From: Candidatus Kapaibacterium sp.
GTDB taxonomy: Bacteria; Bacteroidota; Ignavibacteria; Kapaibacteriales; UBA4661
Length of the DNA: 34,375 bases
Direction of reading: 5' to 3'
NCBI GenBank assembly: GCA_025055035.1
Contig: JANWZB010000018.1
Span: 1 to 34,375 of the forward strand
Position numbers and translations under genes: made by a program. The notes under the pieces are model-generated. The model did no database searches and was not told the DNA's origin. It worked only from the letters and a program-made list of their open reading frames with translations. Positions 13,205-16,167 of the stretch are shown in pieces; position 1 is the stretch's first letter, and each line of letters starts with the position of its first letter.

Positions 13205-13753
13205 TTAAGCACTTTCTACACTTTGTCTGAAACGCTGTACTGCTGCTGTATGGTCGGTACGGAGTGTTTGTTCTAGGATGCCATTTTCCCCAAAATTTTG
13301 GTGAAACAACGGTAGCGAGAACGTCGCAGCAATCTGTGCTCCACACCGTGGAAAATACGCCTTTGCTATTTCGAGAACACCTTGACCACCAAGCTTACCA
13401 GGCGATGTACTCATCAATAGCATTGGTTTGTTTGCATAGATGTTCATATCAACTCGGCTACACCAATCAAGAACATTTTTGAAGGCAGCAGTATAGCTTC
13501 TATTGTGCTCAGCAAGCGAACATACGATGCCATCGGATTGCATCATATGTTCTCGAAAAGCATATGCCTGAGCAGGGATACCTATCATTTTCTCTCTATC
13601 TGCAGAATATAACGGCATCTCAAAGTTATTCAAATCAAGTATCTGCACAGAGTACTCCTTGAATTCCCGCAGTGTGTAGAGCACGAGGCGTCTATTAATA
13701 GACGTTGAGCTTGTGCTTCCTGCAAAAGCAACAATACTTTTGGTCATAGGCAT
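13205..13753 (-). CDS. NAD(P)H-dependent FMN reductase family protein
   Basis: Flavodoxin-like fold of 182 residues. The FMN phosphate-binding loop is FAGSTSSTSINRRL at the N-terminus (family consensus GS.R..S.N). The central block MQSDGIVCSLAEHNRSYTAAFKN corresponds to the DG/ii..PEYN..ipg.LKN region, here with SLAEHNRSY in place of PEYN. The KPMLLMSTSPGKLGG segment matches the late strand with the isoalloxazine loop. Members reduce FMN, quinones or azo compounds with NAD(P)H. It is cytosolic with no signal peptide. A second ATG at 13747 could be the start. It lies between the TerB-like gene at 13787 and the gluQ-like gene, with gaps of 33 and 54 bp, in the same direction. Confidence 0.82.
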   Translation of the reverse strand: MPMTKSIVAFAGSTSSTSINRRLVLYTLREFKEYSVQILDLNNFEMPLYSADREKMIGIPAQAYAFREHMMQSDGIVCSLAEHNRSYTAAFKNVLDWCSRVDMNIYANKPMLLMSTSPGKLGGQGVLEIAKAYFPRCGAQIAATFSLPLFHQNFGENGILEQTLRTDHTAAVQRFRQSVESA

Positions 13754-13786: not shown

Positions 13787-14305
13787 TTACGATAAGAATG
13801 TCGACCAGACTTTTGAACCATCGCTCGATGTGATGATTTTCTGCAATTTCTGGAAGCTTAACCCCAACGCCTCCGCCACAACAACCAAATTCTCAATTTC
13901 TTCTTCCGAAATATTTGACCCTTCTCCTGTTTCGCTAAACTCCCCCGAAGCAGCTGCTACCGACCAACCCATGACGAAGACTAGTGTTTTGAACTCACTT
14001 GTTACATCAGGCGGAAGTTTATCAAGAATAGCTACAGCCTCGCGCAAACCTTGGTAGGGCCTTGTAGGATTGTTCTTTGCTTTGTGGAGAATATCAATGA
14101 ACGAAGCGTCCATGTTACTAAATACTGCTCGTGCAAACTCGTCTTTCAGGCGCGGTGCATCATCAAGCATAGACTGGAATGTCTCCGTTTCGCGTTCATC
14201 AATTACAGTGTCTGCTCCTGCAACTTGGTAGAATACCCAAAAGGGCACCATATAAATAGTTGCAAGCTCCTCGAGAGAAAATCGGGCAAGGATTGGATCG
14301 ATCAT
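13787..14305 (-). CDS. TerB-like helical protein, copy 1 of a tandem pair
   Basis: A 172-residue, mostly helical soluble protein that I do not recognise with certainty. It has two acidic loops resembling the A-DG-E metal/acid loops of TerB-fold proteins: VAGADTVIDERE in the first half and VAAASGEFSETGEGSNISEE in the second. That suggests an internal duplication of a TerB-like unit. The neighbouring gene at 14393 is a clear paralogue (conserved VPFWVFY..AGAD, FARAV, FVMGWSVAAASG and EEEIENL blocks). TerB proteins are implicated in tellurite and other envelope stress but no role can be assigned here. ATG 14305 has AAGG nine bases upstream and matches the paralogue's start; ATG 14314 is also in frame. 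No signal peptide or membrane segment is evident. Confidence 0.7.
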   Translation of the reverse strand: MIDPILARFSLEELATIYMVPFWVFYQVAGADTVIDERETETFQSMLDDAPRLKDEFARAVFSNMDASFIDILHKAKNNPTRPYQGLREAVAILDKLPPDVTSEFKTLVFVMGWSVAAASGEFSETGEGSNISEEEIENLVVVAEALGLSFQKLQKIITSSDGSKVWSTFLS

Positions 14306-14392
14306 AAGGTACATCCTTTTCTGTGAGTATGGTGAAGTAATACCTAACGCTTAAGCACTAGAATAGTACAAGATCCTACCTAAAGGCTTACC

Positions 14393-14908
14393 CTACACTT
14401 TCTCCAAAAAACTATTCCAAATTTTAGCAGCATCAGTGGATACAATAACTTTGCGTAGCTTTGCCATACTTAGACTCAAAGCATCAGCAATATGGGTCAA
14501 ATTTTCAATTTCCTCATCGGAAATATTTGACCCTTCTCCTGTTTCGGTAAAATCTCCTGACGCAGCTGCCACCGACCAACCCATCGCAAACACAATAACC
14601 TTAAATTCTTCGGACTCAGATGGCGACGACTTTTGAGAGATGATACTCATTGCCCGCTCAATTCCTCGTATTGGTTGTTCGCTTTTCGACTTCAGAACTA
14701 CTTCATCGAAGCGTTCATAGAGCAGCGAGAGCACTGCTCGTGCAAATGCATCTTTGAGTTTTGGTGCATCTTTGAGCATGCCCTTAAATGCTCCGATTTC
14801 TCGGTGGTCAATAACGCTATCAGCTCCAGCAACAGCGTAAAACACCCATAAGGGGACAAGACTCAGCGTCAGAATTTCTTCCTGTGTATACTTCTGTAGA
14901 GGTGACAT
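14393..14908 (-). CDS. TerB-like helical protein, copy 2 of a tandem pair
   Basis: A 171-residue paralogue of the preceding gene product. Shared blocks run the full length: LVPLWVFYAVAGADSVIDHRE, DAPKLKDAFARAV, FAMGWSVAAASGDFTETG and EGSNISDEEIENL. The middle, between about residues 70 and 100, is diverged. A strong GAGAGGAG lies upstream; it is 13 bases from ATG 14908 and only 1-4 bases from the in-frame GTGs at 14920 and 14917, so the start is uncertain. The two acidic loops are retained in both copies, which implies they matter for function, perhaps metal binding as in TerB. The function is unknown. It follows the HIT gene on the same strand with a 58-bp gap. Confidence 0.7.
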   Translation of the reverse strand: MSPLQKYTQEEILTLSLVPLWVFYAVAGADSVIDHREIGAFKGMLKDAPKLKDAFARAVLSLLYERFDEVVLKSKSEQPIRGIERAMSIISQKSSPSESEEFKVIVFAMGWSVAAASGDFTETGEGSNISDEEIENLTHIADALSLSMAKLRKVIVSTDAAKIWNSFLEKV

Positions 14909-14966
14909 ACTTTTCACCACGCTCCTCTCAACTTGTAGTTACACGACCGATATTGTGCATCAAGAA

Positions 14967-15308
14967 TTATGCCGTTTCGAACGGTAGAGATTTTCCTCCA
15001 ATAAGATGCATATGCAGATGAAACACCGTTTGTCCACCGTCTTTACCAACATTAATGATAAGACGATACCCTTGCTCAGCAATGCCTTTTTGTGCAGCAA
15101 CCTTCTTTGCAACAAGGATCATTTTCCCAAGCAATACAGCATCATCATCCGCAGCATCATTGACTGTTGGAATAAGTTTTTTCGGAATGATGAGAATATG
15201 CACAGGAGCTACAGGACAAATATCATGAATTGCGATAATTTCTTCATCCTCGTATTCGATTCTTGCAGGAAGTTCTCTGCGGATAATTTTGGTAAATACT
15301 GATTCCAT
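14967..15308 (-). CDS. HIT family protein, HINT/PKCI-like purine nucleoside phosphoramidase
   Basis: A 113-residue single-domain histidine-triad protein. The signature HxHxH-phi-phi is FHLHMHLIGG near the C-terminus, with the middle histidine the likely nucleophile. The front block FTKIIRRELPARIEYEDEEI and the AVAPVHIL-like segment PVAPVHILIIPKKLI are typical of the HINT branch. These enzymes hydrolyse nucleoside phosphoramidates such as adenylyl-lysine. It is 15 bp after the phosphatase gene at 15324 and shares its strand, indicating cotranscription. A second, larger HIT protein of another subfamily is encoded at 25385. Confidence 0.93.
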   Translation of the reverse strand: MESVFTKIIRRELPARIEYEDEEIIAIHDICPVAPVHILIIPKKLIPTVNDAADDDAVLLGKMILVAKKVAAQKGIAEQGYRLIINVGKDGGQTVFHLHMHLIGGKSLPFETA

Positions 15309-15323
15309 AGCATGGTGAATACG

Positions 15324-15833
15324 TTATACAGTCCTTGCTTTCAGCGCGGTGTTTTCTAGGAAATCTAGGAAATTGCTACACGAGCGGTACAAGACATCAT
15401 ACACATACTCGAATCCGTCATGTTCACCATAGTAGGGGTCGGGTACATCAGCATCATACTCACTTGCTTCGGGGTCGAACGAGCGCATCATAAGAATCTT
15501 AGGTGTAGCAATAATTCCTGCCTGCAAGGCTTTCTTTTGCAATGCGAGGATAATCTCCAGATTCGCACTGTCCATAGAGATGATATACTGAAATCGCGCA
15601 AAGTCCTCAATACTTAGTTTTCGTGCACGATGGGTGAGCTCAATATTATGTGCTCGTGCGGTTTCCAACATACGCGAATCCGGCAATTCCCCTGCATGAA
15701 ACCCCGAGGTCCCAGCAGAATCAGCCACAACCTTATCCTGAAGTCCGCGCTCCTGCAGTAAAGTACGAAAAATTCCCTCTGCCATAGGCGAGCGGCATAT
15801 ATTCCCAAGACAAACAAACAGTACGTGAATCAT
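15324..15833 (-). CDS. Low-molecular-weight protein-tyrosine phosphatase / arsenate reductase-type family
   Basis: A 169-residue cytosolic phosphatase. The P-loop is FVCLGNICRSPMAEG, with the nucleophile C8 and R14 in the CX5R motif. The general-acid aspartate is in DVPDPYYGEHDGFEYVYD, matching the DP(Y/F) block with following tyrosines. In this family such phosphatases act on tyrosine-phosphorylated proteins, often partners of BY-kinases that control exopolysaccharide; no such kinase is in the window. Start ATG 15833 puts the P-loop at the family's usual position; the ORF opens further to 15887 but the extra residues are not conserved-looking. First gene of the six-gene minus-strand run. Confidence 0.92.
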   Translation of the reverse strand: MIHVLFVCLGNICRSPMAEGIFRTLLQERGLQDKVVADSAGTSGFHAGELPDSRMLETARAHNIELTHRARKLSIEDFARFQYIISMDSANLEIILALQKKALQAGIIATPKILMMRSFDPEASEYDADVPDPYYGEHDGFEYVYDVLYRSCSNFLDFLENTALKARTV

Positions 15834-16167
15834 CGAGTCTCTGCAATTGTCTTTATTCTGTTGTTCTATCGCTACAATGCATGGCAAATGCTACATGCCG
15901 ACTACTATGGCTGGCTAAGGCACTTACGCCGCGTAGTTTGTACGCAGAACGAAACAATGCAAAATACAATACTTTGGAGATTTTTGAAACAGTTTTACCA
16001 GCACAACTTCGCTATGACACAGAGGAAGTTTGAACTTTGTCGTTATTCCAAGATTCCTGTACGTAGATATGGTCTACAAAATTGTCGCTCTATTGCTATT
16101 AAAAACTTCGTATTTTGTATTTTGGCTACGTTTATACATTTCTTCACTGATTGAGGAGGAGCGCTTT
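15834..16167. other. Divergent intergenic region between the phosphatase gene and uppS
   Basis: No convincing gene is present. It must hold the promoters of the minus-strand run and of uppS. Near the right end is the unusually strong Shine-Dalgarno GAGGAGGAG (from 16153) of uppS. From ATG 16069 the uppS frame is open upstream and would encode a hydrophobic stretch (see findings). Confidence 0.6.
16153..16161 (+). promoter_or_regulatory. Strong Shine-Dalgarno of uppS
   Basis: GAGGAGGAG ends six bases before the GTG at 16168. It is the best ribosome-binding site in the window, where most starts have none, and it decides the GTG start. Confidence 0.75.

Follow-up and report, generated by a model that had tools for sequence, protein, structure and literature searches.

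The window considered here, a stretch of 34,375 nucleotides, lies on contig C99 of the genome G000, a 3.16-Mb draft with an estimated completeness of 99.47%. Within it lie two adjacent reverse-strand open reading frames, at 13787-14314 and 14393-14920, whose genes we call A and B and which the initial annotation described as tandem TerB-like paralogues sharing common blocks around a diverged middle (Table 1). Alignment of the two products agrees with this description: the proteins are 54% identical, with 91 of 172 aligned residues the same in the pairwise alignment, and both ends consist of common blocks, while the middle has diverged. The aligned DNA is ~59% identical. Comparison with orthologues also agrees with the start proposed earlier for B, at the ATG at 14908, but places that of A at the in-frame ATG at 14305 and not at 14314. 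In the order of transcription, the HIT and low-molecular-weight phosphotyrosine phosphatase (LMW-PTP) pair lies upstream, followed by B, A, and then the FMN reductase gene and a tRNA-synt_1c gene, the last of which is gluQ-like in our own reading. Protein A is 75-79% identical to five loci, in metagenome genomes labelled Candidatus Kapaibacterium sp. or Ignavibacteria bacterium. Upon scanning for promoters and terminators, promoter-like sites were found to be no commoner than in shuffled sequence.

Table 1. Genes and sequence features at the TerB-like pair, in window coordinates.
Feature	Position	Strand	Remarks
Gene A, TerB-like protein	13787..14314	(-)	175 aa from 14314; 172 aa from in-frame ATG 14305
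Gene B, TerB-like protein	14393..14908	(-)	171 aa from ATG 14908; upstream GTG 14920 possible
NADPH-dependent FMN reductase family gene	13205..13753	(-)	Pfam FMN_red; occupies the phnC position of relatives
HIT-family gene, upstream of B	14967..15308	(-)	Pfam HIT; same order in several relatives
Low-molecular-weight phosphotyrosine phosphatase family gene	15324..15887	(-)	Pfam LMWPc; same order in several relatives
27-nt stretch in A	13908..13934	(-)	Codes ETGEGSNIS, residues 128-136, second TerB loop
27-nt stretch in B, identical to that in A	14520..14546	(-)	Exact match
First TerB motif of A, VAGADTVIDERE, residues 31-42	14189..14224	(-)	DNA coordinates by arithmetic
First TerB motif of B, VAGADSVIDHRE	14798..14833	(-)	DNA coordinates by arithmetic

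Both proteins almost certainly belong to the TerB family and adopt its fold, profile matches and structural models pointing the same way. Pfam TerB (PF05099) is the only Pfam match for either protein at E up to 10, with scores (21.5 bits for A, 22.7 for B) that fall just under the gathering cut-off of 24.4. Relatives do pass it: the single copy of G009, a genome of the same family, scores 34.4 bits, two order-level relatives score 28.8 and 26.7, and B of G007 is likewise over the cut-off, as are the B genes of G002-G005 when counted with their in-frame neighbours. In each protein the match is one stretch (residues 28-153 of A and 28-155 of B) that spans both loops once, so that each comprises one TerB domain. 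The initial annotation had likened the two loops to the two halves of a TerB unit duplicated within each protein. As pseudo-symmetric halves of one domain they may broadly be retained, the profile-profile comparison of half against half giving P = 0.0011 at a probability of only 20.8%, but the duplicated unit has to be given up, there being one TerB per protein. The DUF533 (PF04391) and EF-hand families, which had been named alongside TerB for comparison, have no profile match to A or B at E up to 10 (relatives match DUF533 only at E 0.06-0.21), and NCBIfam has none at E up to 0.001.

The AlphaFold models, built from 12 sequences, have pLDDT values of 85.3 for A and 82.7 for B, and the only stretch of at least three residues below 50 is the loop (A 128-133, B 120-125). 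With VIA-align, run over Foldseek's top 1000, the same two structures lead for both proteins, with Z values of 7.6-10.1, for which the tool advises caution when models are helical. For A, 2ou3 comes first (Z 8.7, rmsd 4.8, 136 aligned) and 2h5n second (Z 7.6, rmsd 3.9, 121 aligned), with the next row at Z 4.4; for B, 2h5n comes first (Z 10.1, rmsd 3.7, 125 aligned) and 2ou3 second (Z 9.0, rmsd 4.0, 123 aligned), with the next row at Z 4.5. Of the two, 2ou3 comes from Nostoc and bears the title of a tellurite resistance protein (COG3793); 2h5n, which is PG1108 from Porphyromonas gingivalis, we take to be TerB-type as well. This match was reached only via structure alignment, plain Foldseek having failed for A (nothing significant, best E 0.84); searches of PDB sequences, whether with the single protein or the family profile, returned chance hits only. 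Rather than the unrelated fold that would have told against a TerB-like assignment, the models thus match TerB-type structures, and the assignment is upheld from both sides, by the sole Pfam match with some orthologues over the cut-off and by the fold. With solved TerB proteins the pair has in common the all-helical fold, the single domain and the two motif-bearing halves; it differs in its sub-cut-off score, in matching ~126 residues over the 118-position profile, in a longer second loop, in its lineage-specific tandem arrangement and in having no ter operon. The pair is, in short, a further addition to a known family.

Relatives were found by single-protein search in 15 of 61 genomes, representing 7 of 27 genera. 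Adjacent A and B genes are present in all eight genomes of the genus, the window genome included; G009 has one copy, and one or two distant copies occur in each of six order-level genomes. When 296 genomes of the phylum were searched with the profile, at least seven were recovered; G027, which the single-protein search had found at 7.8e-12, was missed. The A and B copies form separate clades (support 97/100 and 90/87), from which we read the duplication as old, with A-B synonymous sites saturated; it may predate the genus, the branching of the G009 copy not being settled by the tree. The pair is under purifying selection, with dN/dS at 0.014-0.057 in the seven pairs, out of ten, for which dS is measurable. 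A and B would, on this picture, be anciently duplicated single-domain proteins of all-helical TerB fold, held in tandem in one Kapaibacteria-type genus. The more distant G011 also has two tandem TerB-like genes (L029:6227-7307; 27% and 35% identical to A), which may, as far as the tree goes, stem from an independent duplication.

The 27-base DNA identity that had been reported between the two genes is exact. Allowing up to three mismatches, the stretch occurs at only these two sites in the window and in 0 of 100 shuffles, and it is contained in the window's sole long direct repeat (177 nt, 71% identity, spacing 612). The synonymous-site comparison between copies that the initial annotation had suggested finds A-B sites saturated, and of 20000 simulations that kept both proteins and sampled codons according to local usage (seven long open reading frames of the window), three produced 27 or more identical nt in a row (P = 0.00015); for these two reasons, the match is more than chance. 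Among residues that are the same in A and B, leaving out Met and Trp, 35 of 84 codons match, as compared with 8 of 8 in the aligned loop columns.

Gene conversion and strong constraint had been offered as alternative sources of this identity, and both seem to contribute. If constraint were acting alone, function would fix the protein and the codons would agree by luck, with no conversion between the genes. This would account for the loop protein, in which all 17 copies (eight A, eight B and the single-copy gene of G009) keep SNIS and the second Gly of GxG, and it draws some support from other nine-column windows (columns 144-148) in which a similar within-genome excess is seen. On the other hand, the simulated P value already takes the proteins and the codon usage as given, and the identity at the DNA level fits short conversion. 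Loop codons vary synonymously among genomes in both A and B. The A and B of the window genome both use GGA at the first loop glycine and GGG at the second, and in the genus none of the remaining 14 A and B loops has either codon at that position; in G006, TCT and ATC are, independently, common to its own A and B loops. Codon sharing in the loop is greater within than between the eight genomes (p = 0.0006 and 0.0012 in two runs), and the excess persists upon removing the window genome (p = 0.005), upon removing both the window genome and G006 (p = 0.039) and upon dropping one of each close pair (p = 0.009). Weighing all of this, we think it unlikely, if still a serious contender, that constraint and codon coincidence suffice.

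The eight genus genomes include two close pairs, which were merged for an exact permutation test with 720 permutations. This gives 6/720 for the loop, 4/720 for columns 110-156 and 18/720 for the same columns minus the loop; the corresponding values are 140/720 for columns 0-110 and 716/720, that is, the opposite sign, for columns 156-171. Rare bases common to A and B tell a similar story, numbering 3.25 within versus 1.02 between genomes in columns 110-156 and standing near parity in columns 0-57 (2.25 versus 1.91). Because the test regions, columns 110-156 among them, were picked after the data had been seen, and because a windowed permutation test gives p < 0.05 in 22 of 161 overlapping windows, with another peak at columns 144-148, the case for repeated short conversion events in the 3' third of the gene, which is its most conserved third, is good but not decisive. 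We consider it fairly likely that gene conversion contributes to the A-B match, the 27 nt being probably the product of a conserved loop and a small recent copy-over between the genes. For paralogues that are saturated elsewhere to undergo such micro-conversion in a conserved loop is, in evolutionary terms, a modest curiosity.

Each TerB domain would contain two pseudo-symmetric turns, one bearing motif 1, AD..ID..E, and the other motif 2, ASG...(G)SNIS.EE, with a lineage insertion. In the family, motif 1 reads VAGAD[ST][VI][IF]D..E (two A copies have Ser in place of Ala34); in most order-level relatives it reads AD.(I/V)(D/S)..E. The genus form of motif 2 is ASG(E/D)...GxGSNIS.(E/D)E, and that of most relatives, where most of the inserted loop is missing, is SG....(I/V/F)(S/N)..E; in the TerB domains of the transporter fusions described below this motif is a short turn, mostly with Asp. 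Since relatives do without most of the loop and the fusions have only a short turn, the acidic stretch of the initial annotation is mainly a family-specific insertion.

This bears on the proposal that the loops bind metal, possibly in a calcium-like manner, with the acidic loops ETGEGSNIS and AGAD..ID.RE chelating an ion that switches a putative sensor. In keeping with it, three acids (Asp35 and Glu42 in motif 1, Glu139 in motif 2; D31, E38 and E135 in A1 numbering) are invariant in the 17 family copies and are kept in the order-level relatives aligned. The loop, however, is the least confident part of both models, Glu131 of A is Ser or Thr in three of eight A copies (G002, G003 and G007), order-level relatives mostly do without the inserted acidic stretch, and the EF-hand profiles, as noted, fail to match. 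In the EF-hand register, which we take to place acids at positions 1, 3, 5 and 12, the first and third positions of motif 1 are occupied by Val and Gly. Judging from the sequences and models, metal or calcium binding by the ETGEGSNIS loop is not favoured, and a calcium-like sensor in the form proposed strikes us as improbable; Asp35, Glu42 and Glu139 would be better candidates for any TerB-wide site.

TerB domains are common in the phylum (78 of 198 genomes sampled), and the conserved pair, taken together with a set of ABC fusions, suggests a specific hypothesis for their work, that of a sensor linked to transporters. All eight of the large frames scanned that have a TerB match over the cut-off combine TerB with ABC_tran and ABC2_membrane. 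Two of them belong to the window genome and one to G004; the remaining five come from G233, G195 and G106, genomes of another family. Every genus genome has a ~1200-aa frame with a TerB match over the cut-off, the scan for ABC domains covering G000 and G004; two shorter frames (G193 and G094) have TerB_N/TerB_C instead of ABC domains. The fusions tie a TerB domain to an ABC transporter in the same genomes as A and B, from which they differ in being membrane proteins of ~1000-1300 aa with a short, mostly Asp-containing motif 2, whereas A and B stand alone and have the long GxGSNIS loop. The two large proteins of the window genome, with TerB at the N-terminus followed by ABC_tran and ABC2_membrane, lie at L064:1366-4947 (contig C172) and L065:1121-4855 (contig C5), and the same fusion in the other family is found at L067-L069, L073 and L074. 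A 12.7-bit TerB match on contig C183 turned out to be a DUF4175 protein. Anantharaman and co-workers reportedly published a genomic survey of Ter systems in 2012, and no claim is made here that the TerB-ABC fusion is new to the literature.

ABC genes are also encountered next to the stand-alone genes. In all eight family relatives (G001-G007 and G009), the best PhnC match, over the TIGR02315 cut-off, adjoins A or the single gene, in the place held at our locus by the FMN reductase gene; seven of these eight neighbours were also covered by a second scan. Directly beside the TerB-like gene and on the same strand, G015 has an ABC exporter gene and G034 a DrrA-like ATPase gene. No ABC neighbour was found among the scanned neighbours in G011, G027, G053 and G060 (for G027 and G053, the upstream side). 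If the family is treated as a single lineage, and G027 and G053 together as another, three of six lineages have one, an association noticed post hoc and with the category picked afterwards. Genomes of 5.6, 3.0, 2.5 and 4.2 Mb contain 46, 24, 19 and 29 ABC ATPase matches, respectively, or roughly 1% of genes if there is one gene per kb, and the neighbour rate is above what this would lead one to expect.

The reading that we prefer is one in which A and B would cooperate as a cytosolic adaptor that responds to a ligand or a metal and serves membrane transport, notably by ABC transporters. That the pair is a TerB sensor or adaptor for membrane transport is, taken by itself, a tentative proposal. 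TerB has been proposed to be a ligand-binding domain, perhaps for the sensing of a signal (PMC7824862), and a partner of the membrane protein TerC (PMC11003894), views that would fit such a role. A more specific version, in which A and B form a heteromeric, diffusible sensor, the stand-alone counterpart of the TerB fused to ABC-2 transporters, and dock onto ABC ATPases through the conserved GxGSNIS loop, is a good deal more speculative and rather improbable; repeated short gene conversion would here keep the loops alike, because both subunits must fit the same partner. To the explanation as a whole, that is, a TerB pair with loop conversion and a paired role as transport adaptor, we would assign a probability of about 0.45.

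The adjoining phnC genes, the one beside the single-copy gene of G009 included, invite the narrower view that A and B are regulatory partners specifically of a PhnC phosphonate-type ABC transporter. The window genome, however, has kept the pair with no PhnC over the cut-off and no phnE. The latter gene, present in seven of nine genomes and absent from the matches in the window genome and in G003 (which is 86% complete), lies away from the pair wherever it occurs. The window genome, the smaller one, seems to have lost the phosphonate-type transporter together with TerD while keeping the pair, so that neither that transporter nor TerD can be indispensable to the pair here. An exclusive partnership with PhnC is in our estimation rather remote.

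Membership of the TerB family might equally suggest a tellurite-resistance or Ter stress operon, and TerC genes are indeed present in nine of nine genomes, with two in the window genome. These two are on other contigs, however (C242 and C66), TerD is found in neither the window genome nor G009 although all seven other genus genomes have it, and the neighbours of the pair are the tRNA-synt_1c, FMN reductase, HIT and LMW-PTP genes. We therefore regard a Ter operon as very unlikely. Exact identity at two places in one genome might, finally, be thought to mark a DNA- or RNA-level element (a binding site or structure) constrained as a nucleotide sequence, but the loop codons of the other seven genomes differ synonymously in both genes, so that the string is not conserved and the idea can be all but ruled out.

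Neither a Ter operon nor a Shango-type defence context was found around the pair. The Shango anti-phage system comprises a TerB-like protein (PMC10250203), a helicase and an ATPase; the TerB-like protein is what the pair has in common with it, but in the window A and B have no helicase or ATPase partner alongside, and their neighbours look like housekeeping genes. In G004, a gene for a Yip1/YknW-like membrane protein lies directly upstream of B (L024:8018-8836), with weak matches that are under the cut-offs. The TerB-like genes of G027 and G053 are each preceded by a gene whose ~970-aa product has BNR-type repeats and a Por secretion tail (L031:4094-6994 and L033:4202-7147).
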